This document shows, piece by piece, positions 35,412-49,117 of a DNA stretch of 64,000 nucleotides (positions within the stretch are counted from its first letter, which is position 1; every line of letters begins with the position of its first letter). The DNA is taken from positions 309,933 to 373,932 of the forward strand of contig NGFI01000004.1 in NCBI GenBank assembly GCA_002215645.1. Reading direction: 5' to 3'. Both the position numbers and the translations under genes were made by a program. A model generated the notes under the pieces. The model did not search any database. It worked only from the letters and a program-made list of their open reading frames with translations, and was not told where the DNA came from. Source of the stretch: Gemmatimonadetes bacterium 2013_60CM_65_52. GTDB taxonomy: Bacteria > Gemmatimonadota > Gemmatimonadetes > Gemmatimonadales > Gemmatimonadaceae.

Positions 35412-35454
35412 GACGTTCTGGCGTAAGCAGTTGACAGCATGGCAAAGGCGCGAG

Positions 35455-35483
35455 AACTTACCCGCGTCACGGAGCAGCGTCAA
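35455..35483 (-). promoter_or_regulatory. Promoter of the peptide-binding protein gene
   Basis: Minus strand: TTGACG (35483..35478), 17 bases, TAAGTT (35460..35455). The -10 hexamer is identical to that of the lipoprotein promoter at 13546-13573. The leader would be about 37 bases. Confidence 0.55.
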
Positions 35484-35523: not shown

Positions 35524-35574
35524 ACGTGTCTCAGGCTGCAAGTTGCGTCCCGCCCGTTCACTTCCCGCAGTGTC

Positions 35575-35799
35575 ATGGCCTTGCCGACCGATCGCCAGCC
35601 ACGTCATACCGCACGGCTCGAGGGCTACGTCTATCGGCGGTCGCTGGCGAAGCGCGAGCTGCTTCCCGCCATCGGCGTAGGCGTGGCGGCGGGGCTCGCG
35701 GCGTTCTACGTGACGCGGCTCTTTCTGGAGCGCACGCCGCTGTTGCCGGAGGAGCGCCGACTCGGGAAGCACCACGCAAGCGGACGCGCCGGCGGATGA
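35575..35799 (+). CDS. Small membrane protein ahead of tamA
   Basis: A 74-residue protein. A positively charged N terminus (RYVYRRSLAKRE-like region, residues 15-30) precedes one transmembrane helix (about 31-50, LPAIGVGVAAGLAAFYVTRL), followed by a short charged tail. No known family is recognised. Its TGA overlaps the ATG of the Omp85 gene (ATGA at 35796-35799), so it is translationally coupled to TamA and could be an inner-membrane accessory of that assembly system. The start at 35575 is the first ATG that gives this topology. Confidence 0.65.
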   Translation: MALPTDRQPRHTARLEGYVYRRSLAKRELLPAIGVGVAAGLAAFYVTRLFLERTPLLPEERRLGKHHASGRAGG

Positions 35800-38084
35800 T
35801 GCGTAGGCGCGGGGCTGCGTGGCGACGTGTCGCCGTGTGCGCCGCTCTGCTGATCAGCATCACCGGAGTCGCTCAGGCGCAGGGAACGGAGTGCGAAGCG
35901 GGTGAGCCGGAGGTGCGGGCGCTCGAGTTCCGCGGCAACACCGTGTTCCGCGCCAGCGATCTCGCGCTGCGCATCGTCACGTCGTCGTCGGAGTTCCTGC
36001 GCCGGAACCTCCGCATCGTGGGTGCGAAGCATTGTCTCGACCACGCCGAGTTGCGGCTCGACGTGGGGCGGCTTCGCATCTTCTATCGGCGCCACGGCTA
36101 TTTCTCGACGCGCGTGGACACCGCGGTGACGCCGCTGTACGACGGTTACGGCGGCGTCCGCGTGGCGTTCCAGATCCACGAGGGCGAGCCGGTCATCGTG
36201 GACTCTCTGCGCGTCGGCGGACTGGACAGCGCCATCGCGGCTATCGCGGACACGAGCAGCCTGGCTCTGCGCCCAGGGATCACATTCGACATGACGCGGC
36301 TGCAGGCGGCAATCGATTCCATCAAGTCGCGCCTGCGGGACAACGGCTATCCGCGCGGCGACGTCGCCGCGAGCTTCAGCGCGGATACCGCCTCACATCG
36401 CGCGAAGGTCACGCTCGACATCCTTTCCGGCACCCGGTCGCGCATCGGCACCATTCGCGTGCTCGATGCGCCCCTGCCGGGTGCTCCGCGCCGGCTACGG
36501 GACAGCACCATCCTTCGGCTGCTTGGGGTCAGCTCCGGGGATCTCTATCAGGAGCGTGAGCTCATCAGAGGGCAGCGCGCGCTCTATCAGACGGACCTGT
36601 TTCGGCACGTGGAGGTGACGCTCGTCGCCGACAGCGCGTATGTCCGCGGCGACTCGCTCGTGGCGCTCCAGGTGAGCGTGGCCGAGAACTACGTGCGAGC
36701 CGTGGAGACGGAAGGGGGGTGGGCGGTGCTGGACTGCTTCAAGGCGCGCGCCCAACTGGTGGACAAGAACTTCCTCGGTGAGGCGCGGCGACTCGAGCTT
36801 TCCGCGCAACTCTCGAAGATCGGATGGGGCGAGCCGACGCGATTCGCGCGCGGCGCGCTCTGCGCGCCAGCCATCAAGGCCGACACGTTCAGCGCGTCGC
36901 TCAACTACTTCGTCGGCGCTACACTGAAGGTTCCATCCTTCCTGGGCCTGCGCTCGCCCGCGCTGTCGGTGTACAGCGAGCGACGCGGTGAGTATCAGGC
37001 ATACCTCCGCTCCACGCTGGTGGGCGGCGAGGCGTCCGTCACGTACGAGCCGTCGCTCGACGTCCCGCTTCGACTCGCGTACTCGCTGGAGTATGGCCGC
37101 ACCGAAGCGCAGCCCGCGCTTCTCTGCGCTGTCTTCAATCGATGCGATGCGCAGTCGCGCTCGCTCATCACCGACAAGAATCGTCCCTTGGCGGTCGCGA
37201 GCGCGCACGCCGAACGGCTCCGCGTGGACAATCCCTTCAACCCGCGACGCGGCACGGCGCTGCGGCTGGACCTGCGCACCGCGGCGAAGGAGATCGGCTC
37301 GGACCGGGACATCCAGTTCCTCAAGGCGCTGTCGGACGCATCGGTGTACCGGGCGCTCAGCGGCTCGGTCACGTTCGCCGCGCGCGCGCGCTTCGGCACG
37401 GTGCTGGGCCGTACGCTCTCCTTCAGCGATGCGGTGGGATTCATCCCGCCGCAGGAACGCCTGTACGCGGGGGGCGCGACGAGCGTGCGTGGGTATCCGC
37501 AGAACGAGCTTGGCGATCTCATCTACATCGCCGAGGACGAGCCGCTCACGCGGGGCACGGGCGATACCGTCTTCAAGGAGGCTTCTTCGGACCGGGTGCG
37601 CCGGGTCGTCCCTGTGGGCGGCAACTCGTTGATCGTGGCGAACTTCGAGCTGCGGGTGCGGAGCGCCTTGTTTCCCGATCTCGTGCAGTACACACTTTTC
37701 GCGGACGCCGGCGACGTCTGGGATCGCGGCCGCACCGTGACGGCGCGAGACCACAAGGCGTCCGCCCTATGGCTGAATGGCCTCAAGTGGACGCCGGGAA
37801 TCGGTGTCCGAATCTTCACGCCGGTGGGGCCCTTTCAAGCGAACGTGGGGTACAATCCCTTCGCGCGTCCGCTTGGAGCCATCTACTTCGATCAGGCGCC
37901 GAACGCCGTGGGATTCGCGCCGCTCTACTGCGTCAGCCCAGGCAACAGCATCCCCAGCATTCGCGGACCGAACGGGTACGAGCAGGTATCCGGCAGCGAG
38001 TGTCCCGCCACGTTTGCGCCGGGCCAGTCGAAGACGTTTCTGAGCCGCCTTACCTTTACGTTCTCCATCGGACCGGACTTCTGA
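35796..38084 (+). CDS. tamA: TamA/BamA-family Omp85 outer-membrane protein
   Basis: A 762-residue outer-membrane assembly protein. It has a signal peptide (residues 1-27, ending GVAQA), POTRA repeats from about residue 35 (VRALEFRGNTVFRASDLALRI; YRRHGYFSTRVDTAV; GEPVIVDSLRVGG; RLRDNGYPRGDVAASF), and a C-terminal 16-strand barrel region from about residue 370. The barrel has the Omp85 features G-G-A-T-S-V-R-G-Y-P (the VRGY motif of strand loop 6), TPGIGVRIFTPVGPFQANVGYNP, and a terminal aromatic strand ending FTFSIGPDF. Adjacent TamB (16 bases downstream) identifies it as TamA-like rather than BamA. The pair inserts outer-membrane proteins or moves lipid between membranes. Confidence 0.88.
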   Translation: MMRRRGAAWRRVAVCAALLISITGVAQAQGTECEAGEPEVRALEFRGNTVFRASDLALRIVTSSSEFLRRNLRIVGAKHCLDHAELRLDVGRLRIFYRRHGYFSTRVDTAVTPLYDGYGGVRVAFQIHEGEPVIVDSLRVGGLDSAIAAIADTSSLALRPGITFDMTRLQAAIDSIKSRLRDNGYPRGDVAASFSADTASHRAKVTLDILSGTRSRIGTIRVLDAPLPGAPRRLRDSTILRLLGVSSGDLYQERELIRGQRALYQTDLFRHVEVTLVADSAYVRGDSLVALQVSVAENYVRAVETEGGWAVLDCFKARAQLVDKNFLGEARRLELSAQLSKIGWGEPTRFARGALCAPAIKADTFSASLNYFVGATLKVPSFLGLRSPALSVYSERRGEYQAYLRSTLVGGEASVTYEPSLDVPLRLAYSLEYGRTEAQPALLCAVFNRCDAQSRSLITDKNRPLAVASAHAERLRVDNPFNPRRGTALRLDLRTAAKEIGSDRDIQFLKALSDASVYRALSGSVTFAARARFGTVLGRTLSFSDAVGFIPPQERLYAGGATSVRGYPQNELGDLIYIAEDEPLTRGTGDTVFKEASSDRVRRVVPVGGNSLIVANFELRVRSALFPDLVQYTLFADAGDVWDRGRTVTARDHKASALWLNGLKWTPGIGVRIFTPVGPFQANVGYNPFARPLGAIYFDQAPNAVGFAPLYCVSPGNSIPSIRGPNGYEQVSGSECPATFAPGQSKTFLSRLTFTFSIGPDF

Positions 38085-38100: not shown

Positions 38101-41100
38101 ATGACACGCCGCAACTTCATCGCCATCGTCAGCCTCTGCGTGGTCGTCGCGCTCGGGCTGATCGTCGGCGGGCTCGGCGTGTTCACGACCCAGTCCGAGT
38201 ATGGGCAGGACGCGCTGCGCCATGCGATCGAGCGTCGCATGCGGTCCTCTCTCAACGGATCGGTGTACGTCGGGCGGATTCGCGGCAACTTCCTTACCGG
38301 CGTCACGATCGATTCGCTCGAGATGCGGGATGACGAGGACTCGCTCGTCGTCGCCACGGGGCGGATATCGCTGGAGTACGATCCGCGCGACCTCGCGGAC
38401 CGGCGGTTGTACTTCCGCAGGGTGACCCTGGAGCATCCGTCCGTCGTGCTGCGCCAGCATGAGAACTGGAAGTGGAACTATCGGAAGCTGTTTCGGCTTG
38501 GCGGCGGACCACAGACGAAGGGACCCAACCGGGGCTTCGGCGATTTCGTGACGCTCGATTCCGTGCACGTGGTCGGAGGCGGAAACCTGCGCCTCACGAT
38601 CCCGTGGCACGCGGACGATTCACTCCACGGCGTTCGCCGCGATTCGGCGATTCGCGCGAACGTCGCGCGCAAGGACCACGAGATACGAAAGACCAGAGAG
38701 GGAATCACACAGACGTATCGGTGGACGGGCGCATATGCGTACCTGCCGCACGTGCTTCTCGCGCACCCGGACACGGCCGGACAGTTGGTGCTCATCGACA
38801 CGCTGCACGTGGCCGAAAGCACGCCGCCGTTTCGCTGGCGCAACGTGCAGGGTGAAGCGCGCATCAAGGGCGACACCGCGTGGATGCGCGCAACGCACTG
38901 GGATCTGCCGGGCTCCACGGGAACCGCTACGGGAAAGATCGTGTGGGGCAGCGATCTTCCCGTGCGCTACGCCGTTCGTGTAATCGGTGACAGCGTGTCC
39001 ATGGCGGACATCGCATGGGTTTACCCCACCTTGCCGGTCACGGGGAGCGGCAAGATGGTGCTCGACATCAGGAACGAGCGAAATCTCAACCTGCTCGATT
39101 ACGCCATCCATTCGATGGACGTCCGCTCGACGAAGTCCAGACTTCGCGGGTCGATGACGTTCGAGATCGGGGGGCCCGTGCTCTCGGTGCACGACGTGAA
39201 GCTCGAGGCGGATCCTGTCGACTTCGATCTGCTGCGCACGCTGAACGGCAAGCCGTTTCCCGCCGACTGGCAAGGCAAGCTCACCGGCACGGTGACGGCG
39301 CGCGGAGGACCGCTGACGCATTTCAAGGTGGACGCGTCCAACCTCGTCTTCCGCGACGCGCACGTGCGCGATGCGGTGTCGCACGTTCAGGGACATGGGG
39401 AGCTCGACATCCTGTTCCCGGCCTTTACCGCGTTCCACGACTTTTCGGTGAACACCGACCGGTTGGACATCAGGACGCTCGCAGCCATCTATCCGTCCTT
39501 TCCACGCATGAAGGGGATCGTGACGGGAACCGCCGTGCTCGACTCCTCGTGGCTGGACGTGCGCGTCTCGAATGCCAACCTGACGCACACCGACGGGCCG
39601 TTCGAGCCCTCGCACGCCACAGGCGGCGGACGCATCACGTACGGCATTCCTTTCATGACGTACGACCTCACGCTCCAGGCGTCGCCGCTCTCGTTGACGA
39701 CGCTCGCACAGTCGTACCCGAAGCTGCCCCTCCGTGGCACGCTGTCGGGACCGATGCGCGTTCGTGGCACGGCGGACAACCTCGATGTGACGGCCGATCT
39801 GGTGGGCGGGCCTGGCCACGTCGTGTACACGGGCAAGGTCGACGCGGATTCCGCCGGCGGATATGGCGCCAGAGGAAGCGGTAGCTTCGACGCATTGAAT
39901 GCGGCAATCCTGTTTGGGCAAGCCACGCCGCCGACGCGGCTCGCCGGAAGCTACGACGTCGACCTCCTCGGCAATGAACTGGCTGATCTGGCCGGATCGG
40001 CGTTTGCGCGTCTCGACCGCTCGGAGGCCGACGGCCTCCGCATTGCGCGAGGTGCCGCGGGAATTCGCTTCGAGCGCGGCGTGCTGGTCGTGGACACGGC
40101 ACGCGTGGACGGACCCGCCGGTGTGCTTCAGGCTCGCGGGTCGTTGGGGCTCACGCGCGCCGCGACGAATGACTCGCTCGCCTATGCTCTCGAGGTGGAT
40201 TCGCTGGGCGGTCTGCGCCGGTATCTCTCGCGCGCATCGGACTCGTCGTTGAAAGCGGTTGCTGCGGATTCGCTCGCCGGATTGCTTGCCATCCGTGGTA
40301 CTGCTCGCGGTACGCTCGATTCGCTCGAGCTGCGCGGAGCGATTCGCGGCAGCGGGATCCGCGTGCGTTCCGATCGTGCCGTGACGCTTGCCGGACGCAT
40401 GGACCTGCGCAGCATTCGTGGCGCGTTGTCCGGTGACGTGGCGCTGCGAGCCGATACAGTGCTGTTAGCGGGGCTGCGCATGGACACCGTCACCATGGCC
40501 GCGCGTGTGCTCGACGCGGGACATGCCCGCTTCTCGACGAGTGCGGTTGGCGACAACGGCGCGAGGCTTCGCGCAGGCGGTGAGTGGAGCGGTGCGGCCG
40601 ACACCACTGCGATCCTGATCGACACGCTCGATCTCGTCGCGGGACCGTCGCATTGGTCGCTTCGCCGGCCATCCCGATTCGTGTCGTCGCCGGCGAGCAT
40701 GTCCCTCGATACGCTTCTCTTTACAAATGCGGGCGGCGCAAGCGTGAGCGGATTCCTCCGTGCCGCGAGCGGCGCCGTCGCAACGGGCCGGCTGCGAGCC
40801 GACTCCGTCTCGATGGCGGACGTCGGACAGATCATGCAGCTCACCACTCCAATCGCCGGGAAACTGTCGCTCGACCTGAACCTCGCCGGCACGCGCGAGG
40901 CGCCGGTGATTCGGATGACGTCGAGCACGAGAGCGTTCCGCTACGCCGGACTTCAGGCGGACGAGGTTGCGATGCGGGGAGATTACGACGCGAGCCGGCT
41001 CGCTCTCTCGGGCGAAGTCCGGCGTGGCGCCCGATCCATACTCGATGCGACACTCAGCTACCCCGTGGCGCTCACGCTCTTTTCCGCGAAGGCGACGGGG

Positions 41101-42696
41101 GACTCGCTGCGCGGACGGATTCGCGCGGACAGCGTCGACCTCGCGCTCGTGGAGGCGTTGTCTCCCAAGGTGCGCAACTCGCGTGGCCGGCTTGCGCTCG
41201 ATCTGGCGCTCAGCGGGGAGCCGGGTCACCCGCACGTGGGTGGTCGAGTGACGGTGGCCGGAGGCGACATCGAGGTCCCCGACATGGGCATCCGTCTCGC
41301 GAGCATGGACGGTTTGATCACGGTCGACGCCGCACGTGACTCACTCAACATCGATCGGCTGACGTGGACCAGCCCGGCCAGTGGCGGAAGCGGCTCGCTG
41401 AACGGATCGGTGGTATTCCGCGATCTCACTCAGCCGTCGCTCGATCTGCGGTTCGACGCTCGCGGAATGCGGGCGGTGGACAAGCGTGGCGTCGCCCGGT
41501 TGGACATCTCGACCGGCGCGGGCGGACTCGCGCTGCGCGGGACGCCGGAGGCTGCGTCGCTCTCCGGTGCGCTCAACGTGGACCGCGGTACCATCTACAT
41601 CCCCGAGCTCGTCAGGAAGCAGATCGTCGATCTCACGGCCGACGAGTTCGCGCAACTCTTCGACACGACCGACGTGCGCAACCGCTCCATCATGCCGCAG
41701 CCGCCGAGTGTGCTGATGGAGCACCTCCAGGTGAACGGCGTGACGGTGCAGTTGGGCGAGGACGTGTGGCTCAGGTCTCGCGAGGCCAGCATCAAACTGG
41801 GCGGATCGCTCACGGTGGCGCGTGTGCGCGACGACCGAGCCACCACGCGCTCGACGCTGGCACGCGGCGCGCGGGCCGACGCGGCGCGATACAACCTGGC
41901 GTTGAGTGGAACGCTGAGCGCGGATCGCGGCACGTACACCCTCGACCTCACGGCCGTGCAGCGCGAGTTCCAGGTGCAGAGCGGACGCATCACCTTCTTC
42001 GGCACGCCCGATTTCAATCCGGAAATCGACGTCAGCGCCCTCTACAACGTGAAGCAGGCGAACCGTGCCGACATCGGCATCCGCGCCCGGATCCACGGCA
42101 ACTTCTATCCGCAGCCGACGCTGGAGCTCTCGAGCACGGACGTCTCGTTGTCGCCGACGGATCTCGTGAGCTACCTGGTGACTGGACTGCCGAGCTTCGA
42201 GCGTAGCGCGGACATTGGCGCTTCACAGCGTGCGATCGAGTTCTTCATCCCGACCGTCGGTGCCTCCGTGAGCCGCGCGTTGCGCGATCAGCTCGGCGGT
42301 GTGGTGGATCTCTTCCAGATCCAGTCCGGCGCCGTGAACGATCCGGGCAACGTCGGCACGAGCAGCCAGTTCCGCAGCATTCTGTCGAGCACGCGTCTGG
42401 GCGGTGAGAAGCAGATCAGCGACAAGCTGTTCTTCAGCTTCAGCACGGGGCTCTGCCAACTCGGCGGCACGAGCGTGGCGGAAGATCCGTCGCGTCAGGG
42501 TTTCTCGGGATTCGTCAGCGCGATCGAGGGCAAGCTCGAGTACCGATTCCCGACGGTCGCGCCTGATCGGTTGTCGCTTCGCGCGGGCCGCGAGCCCGCT
42601 GCTGCGGCACTCCGCTGCAGCGCCAATCAAGTGCGCGGCTTCGTTGCGACGCCGGAACAGTGGGGCCTGTCGCTCTTCCGCTCCTGGTCGTTCTGA
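38101..42696 (+). CDS. tamB: Translocation and assembly module protein TamB
   Basis: A 1531-residue AsmA/TamB-like protein. One N-terminal membrane helix (about residues 8-28) anchors it, and most of the chain is repetitive beta-strand sequence (periplasmic beta-taco). The C-terminal DUF490/TamB domain is recognisable from YNLALSGTLSADRGTYTLDLTAVQREF, through ITFFGTPDFNPEIDVSALYNVKQANRADIGIRARI, to PTLELSSTDVSLSPTDLVSYLVTGLPSF. It spans the periplasm and works with the TamA-like protein just upstream. TamB is about 1250 residues in E. coli, so this is a long version. The stop lies inside the following lipid-kinase frame if that gene starts at 42660. Confidence 0.9.
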   Translation: MTRRNFIAIVSLCVVVALGLIVGGLGVFTTQSEYGQDALRHAIERRMRSSLNGSVYVGRIRGNFLTGVTIDSLEMRDDEDSLVVATGRISLEYDPRDLADRRLYFRRVTLEHPSVVLRQHENWKWNYRKLFRLGGGPQTKGPNRGFGDFVTLDSVHVVGGGNLRLTIPWHADDSLHGVRRDSAIRANVARKDHEIRKTREGITQTYRWTGAYAYLPHVLLAHPDTAGQLVLIDTLHVAESTPPFRWRNVQGEARIKGDTAWMRATHWDLPGSTGTATGKIVWGSDLPVRYAVRVIGDSVSMADIAWVYPTLPVTGSGKMVLDIRNERNLNLLDYAIHSMDVRSTKSRLRGSMTFEIGGPVLSVHDVKLEADPVDFDLLRTLNGKPFPADWQGKLTGTVTARGGPLTHFKVDASNLVFRDAHVRDAVSHVQGHGELDILFPAFTAFHDFSVNTDRLDIRTLAAIYPSFPRMKGIVTGTAVLDSSWLDVRVSNANLTHTDGPFEPSHATGGGRITYGIPFMTYDLTLQASPLSLTTLAQSYPKLPLRGTLSGPMRVRGTADNLDVTADLVGGPGHVVYTGKVDADSAGGYGARGSGSFDALNAAILFGQATPPTRLAGSYDVDLLGNELADLAGSAFARLDRSEADGLRIARGAAGIRFERGVLVVDTARVDGPAGVLQARGSLGLTRAATNDSLAYALEVDSLGGLRRYLSRASDSSLKAVAADSLAGLLAIRGTARGTLDSLELRGAIRGSGIRVRSDRAVTLAGRMDLRSIRGALSGDVALRADTVLLAGLRMDTVTMAARVLDAGHARFSTSAVGDNGARLRAGGEWSGAADTTAILIDTLDLVAGPSHWSLRRPSRFVSSPASMSLDTLLFTNAGGASVSGFLRAASGAVATGRLRADSVSMADVGQIMQLTTPIAGKLSLDLNLAGTREAPVIRMTSSTRAFRYAGLQADEVAMRGDYDASRLALSGEVRRGARSILDATLSYPVALTLFSAKATGDSLRGRIRADSVDLALVEALSPKVRNSRGRLALDLALSGEPGHPHVGGRVTVAGGDIEVPDMGIRLASMDGLITVDAARDSLNIDRLTWTSPASGGSGSLNGSVVFRDLTQPSLDLRFDARGMRAVDKRGVARLDISTGAGGLALRGTPEAASLSGALNVDRGTIYIPELVRKQIVDLTADEFAQLFDTTDVRNRSIMPQPPSVLMEHLQVNGVTVQLGEDVWLRSREASIKLGGSLTVARVRDDRATTRSTLARGARADAARYNLALSGTLSADRGTYTLDLTAVQREFQVQSGRITFFGTPDFNPEIDVSALYNVKQANRADIGIRARIHGNFYPQPTLELSSTDVSLSPTDLVSYLVTGLPSFERSADIGASQRAIEFFIPTVGASVSRALRDQLGGVVDLFQIQSGAVNDPGNVGTSSQFRSILSSTRLGGEKQISDKLFFSFSTGLCQLGGTSVAEDPSRQGFSGFVSAIEGKLEYRFPTVAPDRLSLRAGREPAAAALRCSANQVRGFVATPEQWGLSLFRSWSF

Positions 42697-43580
42697 AGCG
42701 CGCGCTCATCATCGCCAATCCCGCGTCGCGTCGCGGCGAGCGCCTTGTGGACGAAGCGCGTTTCGCCGTCGAGAAGTGCGGCGCCACGTGCGACGTGCTG
42801 CTGACGGAGCATCCGGGGCACGCGCGCCAGCTCACCACCTCGCACGCGCAGAACTACGACGTCGTCTTTGCCCTCGGCGGCGACGGGACCGCGATGGAGG
42901 TGGTCGGCGCGCTGGCGAATACGACGACGCCGATCGGCGTGCTCCCCGGAGGCACGGGCAACCTGCTGGCACGGGCGCTCGGCATTCCCCTCGCCGTTCG
43001 TGAGGCGGTGCCGGTGCTCATGTCCGGCACGACGCGCGTGATCGACCTCGGGATGGTGAAGGGTCATCATTTCGCCGTCGCGGCGGGTGTCGGCATCGAC
43101 GCGACCATGGTGGCCGAGACGCCACCGTGGATGAAGCGGCGCCTTGGCGTGCTCGCGTACACCCTCATCGCGGCGAAGGCAGCCTTCACCGCGGTGCTGT
43201 TCCGGCGCTTCTTCGTCGCCCGCGTCGAGGTTGGCGGAGAGGTGATCGAGCGGCCGGCGGCGGCCGTCCTCTTTGCCAATTTCGGCGCCATTCTGGAGGA
43301 CCGGATCTCGTTCGGTCCCGACATCACGGTGGACGACGGCCTTCTGGATTTGTGTCTCGTGTCACCGCGCCACCTGCTCGACGCATTTCGTATCATTTGG
43401 AGGATAACATGCCGAGACTTCAGACCAGATCCAGCGTTACTATATAGGAAGGGGACGCGTTTCCGGCTGGAGACCGTGCCCGTCCTTCCCCTCCAGGCCG
43501 ATGGCGAGTTGCTCGGTGTCACACCCGCCGAGATCACCGTCGAACCGCTCGCGGTTCATCTGCTCGTCCCGCGCTCCTGA
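42660..43580 (+). CDS. Diacylglycerol/lipid kinase-like protein
   Basis: A DAGK catalytic-domain protein of up to 306 residues, paralogous to the one at 19892-20776. It shows RALIIANPASRRGERLVDEA, the loop A-L-G-G-D-G-T-A-M-E-V-V (GGDGT), L-P-G-G-T-G-N-L-L-A-R-A-L-G-I-P and a C-terminal LPLQADGELLG (the DGE signature). The start is uncertain: GTG at 42660 overlaps tamB by 37 bases, while a non-standard CTG at 42693 would give a 4-base overlap and start at the conserved domain. It probably recycles diacylglycerol or phosphorylates sphingoid-type lipids. Its coupling to TamB suggests a link with envelope lipid homeostasis. Confidence 0.85.
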   Translation: MGPVALPLLVVLKRALIIANPASRRGERLVDEARFAVEKCGATCDVLLTEHPGHARQLTTSHAQNYDVVFALGGDGTAMEVVGALANTTTPIGVLPGGTGNLLARALGIPLAVREAVPVLMSGTTRVIDLGMVKGHHFAVAAGVGIDATMVAETPPWMKRRLGVLAYTLIAAKAAFTAVLFRRFFVARVEVGGEVIERPAAAVLFANFGAILEDRISFGPDITVDDGLLDLCLVSPRHLLDAFRIIWRITCRDFRPDPALLYRKGTRFRLETVPVLPLQADGELLGVTPAEITVEPLAVHLLVPRS

Positions 43581-43610
43581 CGCGGAGACACTCTTTCCGG
43601 TTTGCATGTG

Positions 43611-46600
43611 ATGGCGAACGACAGGCACGCGAACGCCGCATCGGCGCCCCGGTCCGGGAAGACGTATGATGCACGGAACGAGATTCTCGCCGATTCCGTT
43701 CTCCGGAAGGTGCAGCAGGAGCGCGACCATCTGCTCCTGCTGCACGAGGCGCTCGCGGACGTCGAGCGCGCGACGACGCTCGAGGACCGCCTCCAGATCT
43801 TCGTTGCGGCGATCCGCCGCATCGGCTTCGGGCGTGTGACCATCACGCTGCGCGACGACGACCTGAACGCGACGCGGATCGTCACGGCCGGACTCACACC
43901 CGCGGAGGACGCGCGGCTCCGCGAGAACCCGATTCCAGGGCACGTGTGGGCGCGGCGGCTGACGATGATCGACCGGTTCCGCGTGAGCAACTCCTTTTAC
44001 CTCGACGGGGCTGATGCCTGGGTGAAGGAGGAGTTCGGCGGCGGTCTGCAGAGTCAGCTCGAGCCCGTTGCGGACTCCGATTGGTTGCCCGCGGACATGC
44101 TGCTCGTGCCGTTGCATTCCGCCAAGGGCGCCGTGGTGGCCACGCTCGTCCTCGACGATCCATCGGACCGTGCACGTCCGACGCTCATGCGCGTGCACAC
44201 CGTGGAGCTGTTCGCGCAACAGGTGGCGTCGATGCTGGAGCACGCCGCGCTCATCGAGGTGGCTGACCGTCGCGCGCGGCGCCTTCAGCACGTGCACCAG
44301 GTTGGCCTGCTGCTCGCCCAATCGCTGGACGAGCCCACAATTCTGCGCAGCCTCGCCGAGCAGATCGAGCGAATCCTGCCCGTGGCGACGGTGGGAGTGC
44401 TGCCTCCTGAGGACGCCGACGCCACGTGGCCCAGCGTGCTGCGCCGCGGCGGGAAGGAGCAGGACGAATTCGTCGTGCCGCAACACCTGCGCTCTCTCGC
44501 GTCGGTGGCCGCGCGCACTCAGCGTGCGGCCCGTGTCGGTGCCGCGCTGGCCGTGCCGTCGATGCTCGGCACCGCAACCGTCGGCGTGGTCGTCGTGGAG
44601 GCAAAGCCTGGCGAGCACGTTTCCGAGCCCGACGCGGAGCTGCTCGCCACCATCGCAATGCAGGCTGCCGCGGCCATCAGCAACGCGCGGCTGTACGCGG
44701 CCAGTCAGCGTCAGCGGCGACAGATGGAGGCGCTCGCGGAGATCGCGCGCGCGGTCGGCGAATCGCTGCGGATCGACCGGGTAATGCAGCTCATCCTGCG
44801 TCATGCGTGTGCGTTGCTGCGCACGGACGGCGCGACCATCGCACTGCTGCGTGGCGACGTGCTGGAGGTCACCGCCGGCGTGGGCGCCGGCCGGAGCCTC
44901 GTCGGTGCGCAGTTGACTCTCGGAACGAGCCTCGCCGGCCGGGCAGTGCGCTCGTCCATCAGCATCATCGAAGACGACGTGCGCGCGGACGCCGACGCGT
45001 TCGGAGGCAGCGTGTCCGCGGGCGACGTGCGCAACGCCGTCGTGGTGCCAATGTTCAGCGCGGACGGTCCAATCGGTGCGCTGTCGGTGTTTAACCGCGT
45101 GACGCCCTTTACCGACGACGACGCTGGCATTCTCCAGCGGCTCGCGGACCAGGTTGCCTTCGCGGTGGTGCACGCGCGGCTGTTCGAGGAGGTCGGCGAG
45201 GCGACGCGGGAGTGGGCGGTGGCATTCGACTCCATCGGTAGCGGCATGGTGCTGCTCGATCGGGACGGAATCATCCGTCGCACGAATGCCCGCGCACGTG
45301 CCTTGATGCAGGTGGAGCGGGAAGACGAATTGGTCGGCCGCCCATTCCACACGGCGTTGTTCGGGGACGAGGCTCCGTGCGAGAACTGTGTGCATCTCGC
45401 CGCGATGCGCGATGGGGCGGTTACTCGCGGGACGCACGACGACCGCGAGCGCGGACGCCTGTTCGACATCACTGCCGCGCCACACCCACTGGGAGGCGCC
45501 GTCGTCACGTTCGACGACGTGACCGAGCACCATTCATTGGCGGAGCGCTATCGCCGTGTCGTCGAGACGACGCGCGATGCCATCGTCATCACCGACGAAT
45601 ATCGCCGCATCTCTTTCGCGAATCCCGCGGCACACGACCTTCTCGGTCACGGCGCGGATCTCATTGGCCTGCCCACGGATGCCGTCGTGCCCGAGGAGTA
45701 TCGCGCATCGGTGCGACAGCACGAGGATTTGGGCTTCAGCGGCGAGCCGCAAAGCTACGAAGGCATGGTGCTGCGCGCCGACGGCGAGCGCCGTCTCGCG
45801 TCCATCCGTACCGCGCCATTGCGCGAGCTGGGTCAGGTGACCGGCGTCGTTGCGACGCTACGCGACATCACGGACGAGCGCCGCGCGCGCGATGCCGTGG
45901 CGCACTCGGAGACGCGGTATCGCAATCTCTTTCATTCCGCGAGCGACGCGATCTACACGCTCGACGTCTACGGTGCGTTCACGTCCGCCAACCAGTCGAC
46001 CAGCGAGCTCACCGGCCGCGCACACGAAGCGCTCGTCGGCCACGACTTCGGCCCAATGGTGGACGCGGAGGATGCCGCGCACGTGCTCGAGCACTTCCGG
46101 AGCGCGCTGCGCGGGCAGGCCGTTCGATACGAGTGTCGCGTGGTTCGCCCGGACGGCGACCGCCGCACCATTTCCGTCACGAACACGCCCATCAAGCGCG
46201 ACGACAAGATCATCGGCGTGCTCGGCGTGGCGCGCGACGTCACCGAGGCGCGGGCGCGCGCAGCGGCGCTCGCGCGCTCCGAAGCGCGATACACGCGGCT
46301 GGTCGAATCAGCCACGGACGCCATTTTCACCATCGACCAGACGGGGCGGTTTACCGCCGCCAACCGTGCGCTCTGCCAAGCGGTAGGCCGCCGCCGCGAA
46401 AAGTTGCTTGGCACGCTGCTCACCGATCTCGTAGACCCGCGCGATCTCGCCGCCGCCAACCGAATATTGCGCGAGGCCGGCGCGGGGCAGCGCTCCCGCG
46501 GCGCGCTGCGGTATCTCGGTCTCGACGGCAGCGTGAGACAGGGGTCCATCATCATGTCCCCCGTACTCGAGGACGATCTCGTCGTCGGCACGCTGGGCAT

Positions 46601-47744
46601 TCTGCGCGACGTCACCGACGAGCAGCGAATCGCGGAGCAATTGCTGCAACAGGAGAAGCTGGTGGCCGTCGGACAACTGGTCAGCGGCGTGGCGCACGAG
46701 CTGAACAATCCACTCGCGGCGGTGATGGCCTTCGCGCAGCTCCTGCTGGCGTCTCCTGACGGAGTGTCGCCCGAATCGCGGCAATCCGTGGACACCATTC
46801 ACCGTGAAGCCAAACGCGCCGCGAAGATCGTGTCCAATCTGCTCACGTTCGCGCGGCAGCAGCCGGCGGAGCGGAGAGAGGCGAGCCTGAACGAGATCGT
46901 GAGCGACACACTGGAGCTGCGCCGCTACGCGCTGCGATCGGCCGAGATCGAGGTCACGCTGAGCCTCGACGAATCCCTGCCGAACACGTGGGCGGATCCG
47001 TATCAGCTTCAACAGGTCGTGCTGAACCTAGTCACGAACGCGGAGCAGGCGCTTGCGGAGCGCACCGGCGCGCGGCACATCCGGATCCATACGTTTCGCG
47101 ATGGGTCGCGGCTCATGCTCAGCATCTCGGACAACGGACCCGGTATTCCGCGCGATCAACTGGACCGGATCTTCAATCCGTTCTTTACGACGAAGCCGGT
47201 CGGGCAGGGGACGGGCCTCGGCCTCTCGATTTCCGACGGCATCATCCGCGAGCATGGCGGCCGCATCCGCGTGGAATCCGCGCATGGCTTCGGCGCGGTA
47301 TTCATCGTCGAGCTGCCGCATGTCGTGCCGCCCCCGGCGGCTGGCGCCCCCGACGAGCGGGAGAGCGGCGAGCATTCGACCGCCCGGCATATGCTCGTGG
47401 TGGACGACGAGCCCGCGATGCGCGCGGCCGTCTCGGGCTTCCTCCAGTCCCTCGGTCACCGCGTCCACGTGGCCGCCGGCGGGGCCAGTGCCCGCGCGCT
47501 CATGCAGGAAAACACTTATGATGTAATCCTGCTCGACCTGCGCATGCCCGACGTCGGCGGTGAGGCGTTGTACCGCGAGCTGTGCGAGCGCGACCCGCGT
47601 CATGCGTCCCGCATCGTCTTCGTGACCGGGGATCTGCAGAGCGAGCTGGCGCAGCGCTTTCTCAACGAGGCCGGACGGCCCGTCATCGGCAAACCTTTTC
47701 AGCTCGACCACCTTGCGGACGTCGTGGCCCGCGTGACGAACTGA
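43611..47744 (+). CDS. Soluble hybrid histidine kinase with GAF and PAS arrays
   Basis: A 1377-residue kinase without membrane helices. Three GAF-like domains occupy about residues 25-215, 225-390 and 395-545 (for example DRVMQLILRHACALLRTDGATIALLRGD). Four PAS domains follow (about 545-650, 655-780, 785-905, 905-1020). HisKA has His1029 in SGVAHELNNPLAAV, the ATPase domain has DNGPGIPRDQ and GQGTGLGLS, and a C-terminal receiver has Asp1309 (ILLDLRMPD). The first PAS contains a C590-E-N-C593 pair. The stop overlaps the next gene's start (TGATG), so kinase and regulator are coupled and almost certainly cognate. Start ATG at 43611; TTG and GTG codons lie just upstream in frame. Confidence 0.92.
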   Translation: MANDRHANAASAPRSGKTYDARNEILADSVLRKVQQERDHLLLLHEALADVERATTLEDRLQIFVAAIRRIGFGRVTITLRDDDLNATRIVTAGLTPAEDARLRENPIPGHVWARRLTMIDRFRVSNSFYLDGADAWVKEEFGGGLQSQLEPVADSDWLPADMLLVPLHSAKGAVVATLVLDDPSDRARPTLMRVHTVELFAQQVASMLEHAALIEVADRRARRLQHVHQVGLLLAQSLDEPTILRSLAEQIERILPVATVGVLPPEDADATWPSVLRRGGKEQDEFVVPQHLRSLASVAARTQRAARVGAALAVPSMLGTATVGVVVVEAKPGEHVSEPDAELLATIAMQAAAAISNARLYAASQRQRRQMEALAEIARAVGESLRIDRVMQLILRHACALLRTDGATIALLRGDVLEVTAGVGAGRSLVGAQLTLGTSLAGRAVRSSISIIEDDVRADADAFGGSVSAGDVRNAVVVPMFSADGPIGALSVFNRVTPFTDDDAGILQRLADQVAFAVVHARLFEEVGEATREWAVAFDSIGSGMVLLDRDGIIRRTNARARALMQVEREDELVGRPFHTALFGDEAPCENCVHLAAMRDGAVTRGTHDDRERGRLFDITAAPHPLGGAVVTFDDVTEHHSLAERYRRVVETTRDAIVITDEYRRISFANPAAHDLLGHGADLIGLPTDAVVPEEYRASVRQHEDLGFSGEPQSYEGMVLRADGERRLASIRTAPLRELGQVTGVVATLRDITDERRARDAVAHSETRYRNLFHSASDAIYTLDVYGAFTSANQSTSELTGRAHEALVGHDFGPMVDAEDAAHVLEHFRSALRGQAVRYECRVVRPDGDRRTISVTNTPIKRDDKIIGVLGVARDVTEARARAAALARSEARYTRLVESATDAIFTIDQTGRFTAANRALCQAVGRRREKLLGTLLTDLVDPRDLAAANRILREAGAGQRSRGALRYLGLDGSVRQGSIIMSPVLEDDLVVGTLGILRDVTDEQRIAEQLLQQEKLVAVGQLVSGVAHELNNPLAAVMAFAQLLLASPDGVSPESRQSVDTIHREAKRAAKIVSNLLTFARQQPAERREASLNEIVSDTLELRRYALRSAEIEVTLSLDESLPNTWADPYQLQQVVLNLVTNAEQALAERTGARHIRIHTFRDGSRLMLSISDNGPGIPRDQLDRIFNPFFTTKPVGQGTGLGLSISDGIIREHGGRIRVESAHGFGAVFIVELPHVVPPPAAGAPDERESGEHSTARHMLVVDDEPAMRAAVSGFLQSLGHRVHVAAGGASARALMQENTYDVILLDLRMPDVGGEALYRELCERDPRHASRIVFVTGDLQSELAQRFLNEAGRPVIGKPFQLDHLADVVARVTN

Positions 47745-49117
47745 TGGCGAAGATTCTGATCGTCGACGACGAGGCGGACATCCGCGCGGCGTTCGCTCGC
47801 TACTTCGAGCGTGCCGGTCATGAGGTATTGCAGGCGGCTACGGGCGAGGAGGGCGTCGCGCTGGCACGCGCGGAGAATCCCCCGGTGATCCTGCTGGACC
47901 TGTTCCTGCCCGACATCTCGGGGCTCGAGGTCCTCGAGCGGACGCGCGAGCAAGCGCCAGTCGTCATCATGATCACCGCGCACGGGGACGTCCCCGCCGC
48001 GGTGCAGGCAATGCAGGGCGGCGCCGAAGGCTTCCTCACGAAACCGGTCGAGCTGGGTCATCTTGGTGCTGTCGTCGACCGCGCGTTGGAGAAAGCGCAG
48101 CTCCGTGCCTTGCGGAGGGAGCACACGGCCCGCAACGCGAGAGCGGCAGCCGAAATGCTCCTCGGCTCCTCCGCACCCATGCGCGAGCTCGCCGAGCAGA
48201 TCGACGTGCTGGCGCGCAGCGAGCAGACGGTGGCGCTCCTCGTGGGAGAGACGGGGGTCGGCAAGTCGCGGGTCGCGCGCGCCATCCATGCGCTCAGCAG
48301 CCGCGCGGCGCGGCCATTCCAGGAGGTCGAGTGCAGCATGCGGCCGGCCGATGCCCTGGAGCGCGAGCTCTTCGGCAGCGAAAGTATCGACGATCAGCCG
48401 CCCGTGGCTGGTCTGCTGGAGGCTGCCGACGGCGGCACGCTGTATCTCGACGAGATCGCGGACCTGCCGGCCGGGCTTCAGACGCGGCTGTTGCGCGTGC
48501 TCGAGAAGCACCGAATGACGAGAGGAGGCGGGTCGCGAGAGATTGCCGTGGACGTCCGCGTCATCGCATCGTCCATCCGTGATCTCGCCACCGAAGTGAC
48601 GGAACAGCGCTTTCGCGAGGACCTCTATTACCGGCTCGGGGCGATGCCGTTGCATTTGCCGCCGCTCCGCGCCCGAGCGCCGGGGGACCTGCGCGAGACC
48701 GCCGTAGCACTGGTATCGGAGCTGAGACGCGGACTCCCCGACGCGCCGACAGAGCTCAGTCGCGCGGCACTCGACGCCATCGGACGCTATCCATGGCCGG
48801 GAAACATCCGCGAGCTTCGCACGGCGTTGGAGCGCGCCCTGCTGCATGCGCGTGGTGAGCCGGCCATCGGCCTCGAGCACCTTCCATTGGAAGTCCTCGA
48901 GGCTGGTGACGGCGAAGGACGCCCGCACGTCTCTCGGACGCTGGCGGACGTGGAGCGCACGCACATCGAGCGCACGCTCCGTGCGCATGGAGCGAACCGC
49001 ACGCGTGCCGCACGGGAGCTTGGCATCTCGCGTGCGACGCTGATCAAGAAGATCCGGGAATTCGGACTCGGCGACCGGCCGGCGCCGGGTGCTCACAACG
49101 GCGCCCAGGAGCGGTAA
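47744..49117 (+). CDS. NtrC-family response regulator lacking GAFTGA
   Basis: A 457-residue regulator: receiver with Asp52 (LLDLFLPD), AAA+ domain and Fis-type HTH. Walker A is G-E-T-G-V-G-K-S (168-175), Walker B is TLYLDE (232-237), the R-finger region is F-R-E-D-L-Y-Y-R-L (290-298), W-P-G-N-I-R-E-L is at 351-358, and the HTH is at about 400-440 (NRTRAARELGISRATLIKKI). Between ELFG (208-211) and the Walker B strand, where sigma-54 activators carry GAFTGA, this protein has SESIDDQPPVAGLLEAADG, three residues shorter and without any such loop. It probably cannot engage sigma-54 in the usual way and may act with sigma-70, as TyrR- or HupR-like regulators do. Its ATG overlaps the kinase stop. 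Confidence 0.93.
   Translation: MAKILIVDDEADIRAAFARYFERAGHEVLQAATGEEGVALARAENPPVILLDLFLPDISGLEVLERTREQAPVVIMITAHGDVPAAVQAMQGGAEGFLTKPVELGHLGAVVDRALEKAQLRALRREHTARNARAAAEMLLGSSAPMRELAEQIDVLARSEQTVALLVGETGVGKSRVARAIHALSSRAARPFQEVECSMRPADALERELFGSESIDDQPPVAGLLEAADGGTLYLDEIADLPAGLQTRLLRVLEKHRMTRGGGSREIAVDVRVIASSIRDLATEVTEQRFREDLYYRLGAMPLHLPPLRARAPGDLRETAVALVSELRRGLPDAPTELSRAALDAIGRYPWPGNIRELRTALERALLHARGEPAIGLEHLPLEVLEAGDGEGRPHVSRTLADVERTHIERTLRAHGANRTRAARELGISRATLIKKIREFGLGDRPAPGAHNGAQER

Follow-up and report, generated by a model that had tools for sequence, protein, structure and literature searches.

The window analysed here, a 64,000-nucleotide stretch of contig NGFI01000004.1 from the 4.2 Mb genome of Gemmatimonadetes bacterium 2013_60CM_65_52, encodes an NtrC-type response regulator that lacks the GAFTGA motif, which raises the question of what such a protein controls and through which form of RNA polymerase. 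We favour, with a probability of about 0.66, a phosphorylation-regulated DNA-binding regulator that derives from a sigma-54 activator, has lost the L1 loop and would act at sigma-70-type promoters, probably those of envelope genes. Loss of the sigma-54 contact is well supported by sequence comparison; loss of sigma-54 activation, the sigma-70 targets, the role of phosphorylation and the envelope regulon are what we infer from the evidence below. The regulator and its relevant elements are:

47744–49117, + strand: NtrC-family response regulator without GAFTGA, REC-AAA+-Fis HTH, 457 aa (translation, Pfam, AlphaFold)
48377–48412, + strand: replaced L1 loop SESIDDQPPVAG, residues 212–223, in the place of HEKGAFTGAxxxxxG (alignments, column entropy)
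48554–48583, + strand: sensor I region VRVIASSIRD, with SSI for the usual ATN (alignments)
48938–49063, + strand: Fis-type HTH with the near-invariant recognition helix NRTRAARELGISRATLIKKI (Pfam HTH_8, alignment)

Translation of 47744–49117 gives 457 residues without an internal stop, and Pfam assigns Response_reg (4–110), Sigma54_activat (140–303; 157.9 bits), AAA_lid_14 and HTH_8 (399–440). Alignment places D52, Walker A K174, Walker B D236/E237, R291/R297 and sensor II R356, in agreement with an earlier sequence-only reading, which had listed the receiver Asp52, both Walker motifs, the R-finger and the Fis HTH as retained. The combination of REC, Sigma54_activat, Fis HTH and a phosphorylatable Asp assigns the protein to the NtrC family by descent and architecture, and the ATPase features of a sigma-54-dependent bEBP (Walker A, Walker B and R-fingers) are all present. 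Two departures were absent from that list: the sensor I change and an Asn-to-Glu exchange in FVxVNC, where E196 occupies the Asn position. The AlphaFold model of the full chain has a mean pLDDT of 90 and a pTM of 0.69, so that inter-domain placement is unreliable. By fold, the top full-length PDB match is B. abortus NtrX (5m7n/5m7o/5m7p), which is also among the top matches by sequence, and the AAA+ part alone superposes with FleQ, FlrC, ZraR and NtrC1 at about 2 Å. The nearest named relative, from a Gemmatimonadaceae MAG, is 70% identical.

The segment singled out by the sequence-only reading, 48374–48436, corresponds to residues 211–231, GSESIDDQPPVAGLLEAADGG. Residues 208–229 read ELFG-SESIDDQPPVA-GLLEAAD, against ELFG-HEKGAFTGAxxxxx-GxFExAx in sigma-54 activators, several encoded by this genome among them, so the description of a shorter acidic and proline-bearing stretch after ELFG was accurate: the loop is three residues shorter than in the GAFTGA paralogues and retains no GAFTGA remnant. 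A functional sigma-54-dependent bEBP is marked by an L1 loop with GAFTGA or a variant that is tolerated; such a motif is missing both here and throughout the orthologous clade.

That clade was assembled from a search that covered the family (179 genomes) and the phylum (395 genomes). All 61 Gemmatimonadaceae members placed in the tree lack GAFTGA and GAFTDA, which answers the earlier question of whether orthologues share the loss. Across 58 orthologues the distance from ELFG to the next Gly ranges from 9 to 29 residues, and mean column entropy is 2.32 bits in the loop, compared with 1.12 in the AAA+ domain, 0.73 in the HTH, 0.65 in Walker A and 0.14 in the R-finger segment; a loop so variable in length and sequence is not expected to contact a conserved partner. 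Some members carry the remnants GAFSEA (L142), GAFGDG (L120) or GATNEA, as erosion would leave behind. The ATP site has been retained (Walker A Lys in 61/61, Walker B Asp in 56/61 and Glu in 60/61, sensor II Arg in 60/60), as have the first and second R-fingers (60/61 and 57/61) and the phosphorylated receiver Asp (D52; 58/58). Conservation of the R-fingers and Walker B implies that ATP hydrolysis still matters, which counts against a simple DNA-occupancy model that needs none.

Absence of sigma-54 does not account for the loss. The genome encodes one copy of rpoN, another point that the sequence-only reading had proposed to check, and the gene occurs in 162 of the 179 family genomes and in 104 of the 105 of high quality. 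Twelve further strong PF00158 proteins are encoded in the genome, ten with GAFTGA or a close variant, one with GAYTDA and one with GTATSA. In the last of these (L013, G000:C14:12649-13098) the motif is degenerate, RERGTATSATRSQR, Walker B reads IADV and the R-finger segment, FRSDLHLPL, is damaged; the neighbours of L013 in the tree carry GAFTDA.

Sensor I appears to have drifted alongside the loop. In all 44 proteins that bear the loop, the last residue of the ATN motif is Asn or His; of the 82 without the loop, 70 have another residue there, which is Ile in the query. Within the 61-member clade this residue is neither Asn nor His in at least 53. Over five well-supported independent contrasts the sensor I change tracks loop loss 4.1 times on average and the opposite never occurs, which is suggestive of coupling, five contrasts being too few for significance; we accordingly dropped any claim of statistical proof. 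According to a reference cited in PMC2745333, the sensor I Thr of PspF couples ATP hydrolysis to restructuring of the sigma-54 polymerase, and drift beside the equivalent position would fit a lost sigma-54 output. Taken with the clade-wide loop loss, its hypervariable replacement and the persistence of rpoN and GAFTGA regulators in the genome, this parallel drift argues that the sigma-54 contact has been given up.

Trees built without the loop columns locate the event. The query falls inside the 61-row clade with an SH-aLRT of 100 in the quick tree and 100/100 in a careful 74-row tree. The sister group, composed of other families, mostly carries GAFTDA, as does the wider Gemmatimonadota side, and many of its members occupy the same locus, which indicates that the motif decayed inside the present lineage. 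Four sister-family tamB-dgk orthologues (L178, L183, L184 and L185) have the query's gene order and an almost identical recognition helix but keep GAFTDA and the sensor I Asn, and may still be sigma-54 activators. The minimum number of loop-class changes on the quick tree is 11, and the careful tree places two to three further losses in the sister group, where the branch of L200, L203, L204 and L206 also lacks both the receiver Asp and its Walker B counterpart. Through loop-less, GAFTDA and ATPase-damaged orthologues alike, the recognition helix (G)NRTRAARELGISRATLIxKI is nearly unchanged. Published evidence on GAFTDA as a working sigma-54 motif is mixed: a list of variants compatible with function in Desulfovibrio includes both GAFSEA and GAFTDA (PMC4641369), whereas a pull-down with the GAFTDA regulator VfmH did not recover RpoN (PMC10714721).

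These states can be arranged, at slightly less than even odds in our estimate, as a stepwise conversion, from sigma-54 activator to sigma-70-type envelope regulator, of one regulator that was inherited vertically and stayed at its tamA-tamB locus. The series would run from GAFTDA through eroded loops (GAFSEA, GAFGDG, GATNEA) to loop-less forms with drifting sensor I and intact ATPase, such as the query, with loss of the phosphorylated Asp and Walker B Asp as well in a sister branch, the recognition helix staying nearly constant and the ATPase, where kept, serving oligomer control only. As a separate observation, L199, L200, L203, L204 and L206, which lack the loop, receiver Asp and Walker B Asp and retain the recognition helix, are candidate phosphorylation- and ATP-hydrolysis-independent regulators.

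Regulators of this kind have precedents. NtrC of Caulobacter and of Rhodobacter capsulatus and one V. cholerae bEBP lack GAFTGA and act at sigma-70 promoters (PMC10274813); TyrR, DhaR and HupR are likewise GAFTGA-less bEBPs working on sigma-70 promoters, and single GAFTGA changes mostly reduce or abolish activity (PMC3162934). The present regulator has the combination typical of the group that includes TyrR, HupR and Caulobacter NtrC, namely bEBP architecture with GAFTGA lost, and shares with TyrR, HupR, DhaR and VpsR a Sigma54_activat domain devoid of the motif (PMC3162934), VpsR being also a fold match. Like the Caulobacter and Rhodobacter NtrC proteins it is an NtrC-type response regulator whose loop was deleted in one lineage, but it differs from them in lineage, partner and locus, and no nitrogen genes were seen beside it. 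TyrR and DhaR carry other sensory domains, VpsR responds to c-di-GMP, and we know of no TyrR-, HupR-, DhaR- or VpsR-type bEBP at a TAM locus.

The list of relatives proposed earlier (NtrC, TyrR, HupR and PhhR) omitted NtrX, which is both the closest full-length structure and the closest loop-less analogue. Alphaproteobacterial NtrX is also built as REC-AAA+-Fis HTH, has a short variable loop for GAFTGA (for example TEDRSGGPRKV) and has often lost the sensor I Asn, whereas its partner is NtrY rather than a GAF/PAS hybrid kinase, its recognition helix differs and the tamAB linkage belongs to the query. Orthology to NtrX is excluded by context (no ntrY neighbour, a tamA-tamB-dgk block instead) and by the tree: the query belongs to a Gemmatimonadota side of 64 rows (100/99), with NtrX and the GAFTGA-less acidobacterial look-alikes across that branch, so that loop loss in the query lineage was independent of NtrX. 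The acidobacterial NtrX-like regulators L022, L025, L040 and L046 bear Gly/Pro-rich loops (YRHGAGPGGPNQPNEKR and similar) in place of GAFTGA.

The regulator gene closes a block that the sequence-only reading, right about the loop, had overlooked; Pfam and synteny identify it as a TAM (tamA-tamB) locus:

35431–35461, + strand: promoter-like element TTGACA-N17-GAACTTAC facing the tam block, with a mirrored divergent TTGAC on the other strand (conservation in 12 loci)
35796–38084, + strand: tamA-like Omp85/POTRA protein, start inferred from the signal peptide (Pfam Omp85, POTRA; synteny)
38101–42696, + strand: tamB, inner-membrane subunit of the TAM complex (Pfam TamB; synteny)
42660–43580, + strand: YegS/diacylglycerol-kinase-like lipid kinase, dgk (Pfam DAGK_cat, YegS_C; synteny)
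43602–47744, + strand: hybrid histidine kinase, GAF-PAS-HisKA-HATPase-REC, about 1380 aa (Pfam, junction, neighbour tally)

The kinase stop overlaps the regulator start (TGATG), and the hybrid kinase is likely the cognate kinase. Homology mapping shows the order tamA-tamB-dgk-(kinase)-regulator to be kept in the mapped loci of the order, with a divergent peptide-binding protein gene adjoining tamA in many of them. Directly before the regulator stands the hybrid kinase at 41 of 61 loci, the lipid kinase at 17 and tamB at 3, the kinase being absent from 20 loci, and this neighbour state has changed at least 11 times on the tree. With the neighbour changing and the regulator constant, signal input may have been rewired often, output and TAM linkage remaining as they were. 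TamB is described as having a role in outer-membrane lipid homeostasis (PMC8593681, PMC11226057), so that a role in the envelope is the obvious guess for the regulator, and its fixed position at the end of the tamA-tamB-lipid kinase block makes envelope targets probable. An NtrC-family parallel is available in R. sphaeroides, where NtrYX controls the cell envelope and NtrX is a proposed repressor of some targets (PMC7240162).

Upstream of tamA, TTGACA-N17-(G)AAC(T/A)T-like boxes and the mirrored TTGAC are common to 12 loci from two families. The conserved element facing tamA is thus of TTGACA type and not of the -24/-12 type; its conservation suggests a promoter, generic sigma-70 and promoter scans of the locus having made no call there or elsewhere, and a sigma-70-type polymerase seems to transcribe the regulator's block. 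This fits a sigma-70 output of the regulator and does not prove it. Together with the near-invariant recognition helix and the published GAFTGA-less relatives, it is why we favour the sigma-70-type reading. Counting against that reading is GGGACGCAACTTGCA (35537–35551, minus strand), which faces the divergent peptide-binding protein gene and loosely resembles a -24/-12 element; it hardly varies among five genus members and occurs once in the genome, and its -24/-12 score is weak, being matched by 7 to 11 of 200 shuffles in four members and by 46 in the fifth. Also against it, neither inverted repeats nor NtrC/NtrX palindromes pointed to a convincing conserved operator upstream of tamA. One candidate, TGTCGAAAAGGTTGACA, common to two sister-family loci, was rejected: it overlaps the TTGACA box, and nothing in this genome matches it closely.

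Under the favoured reading, a kinase, here the overlapping hybrid kinase, would phosphorylate Asp52, and the receiver would then change how the AAA+ core oligomerises, the ATP site of that core being kept, on this view, for assembly or conformational control. Bound to operator DNA, HTH dimers would activate or repress promoters of a sigma-70-family polymerase, acting by occupancy or contact instead of ATP-driven sigma-54 remodelling, with outer-membrane and phospholipid homeostasis genes, possibly including the regulator's own block, as probable targets.

Among the alternatives, the regulator may be mainly a repressor or anti-activator without an activating role, working by operator occupancy or through mixed oligomers with GAFTGA regulators. 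The DNA-reading helix does persist in loop-less and even ATPase-damaged relatives, several loop-less proteins of the sister clade also lacking D52 and the Walker B Asp, and the repression proposed for NtrX (PMC7240162) offers a precedent; D52 and the ATP site are kept in the clade, however, which a passive repressor would not need, and we consider this explanation unlikely, though worth weighing. Continued activation of sigma-54 promoters through another surface, the variable loop or the L2 loop substituting, seems to us improbable. Strongly constrained ATP-site residues and the presence of rpoN would suit it, as would the GAFSEA (L142) and GAFGDG (L120) remnants, GAFSEA being one of the variants compatible with function in Desulfovibrio (PMC4641369), but neither the sequence nor the length of the loop is conserved within the clade, the query's loop is shorter by three residues, sensor I drifts with the loop, and single motif changes are mostly harmful to activity (PMC3162934).

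The sequence-only reading had offered sigma-70 regulation or a non-transcriptional AAA+ function; the former is favoured here, short of demonstration, and the latter is disfavoured by the conserved HTH. An ATPase with, for instance, a chaperone or remodelling task at the TAM complex would agree with the fixed tamA-tamB linkage and the intact AAA+ core, but the HTH is intact with a near-invariant recognition helix, and neither Pfam nor the AlphaFold model shows a membrane or substrate-binding addition, leaving this very improbable. A sequencing error is ruled out by the loss in 61 orthologues of different genomes, and an assembly error or decaying pseudogene has a negligible chance, given that shared loss, the intact frame and the conserved ATP-site and HTH motifs.

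GAFTGA-less sigma-70 bEBPs such as TyrR, HupR and Caulobacter NtrC were already known; in our view, the novelty here lies in the independent origin, the gradation of states seen at a single locus, and the constant association with TAM. The domain name Sigma54_activat invites annotation as a sigma-54 activator, by which at least 61 proteins of this clade would be mislabelled. One gene at a constant locus, present with and without the sigma-54 loop while its recognition helix hardly varies, offers a direct test bed for what becomes of a bEBP ATPase after loss of sigma-54 contact, and the regulator is a candidate controller of the TAM outer-membrane machinery in a phylum, Gemmatimonadota, where envelope regulation has, to our knowledge, been little studied.

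At the opposite end of the block, a small open frame (35575–35799, 74 aa) with one likely transmembrane stretch, GYVYRRSLAKRELLPAIGVGVAAGLAAFYVTRLFLERTPLLPEERR, overlaps the tamA start, and its core is apparently conserved in the genus.
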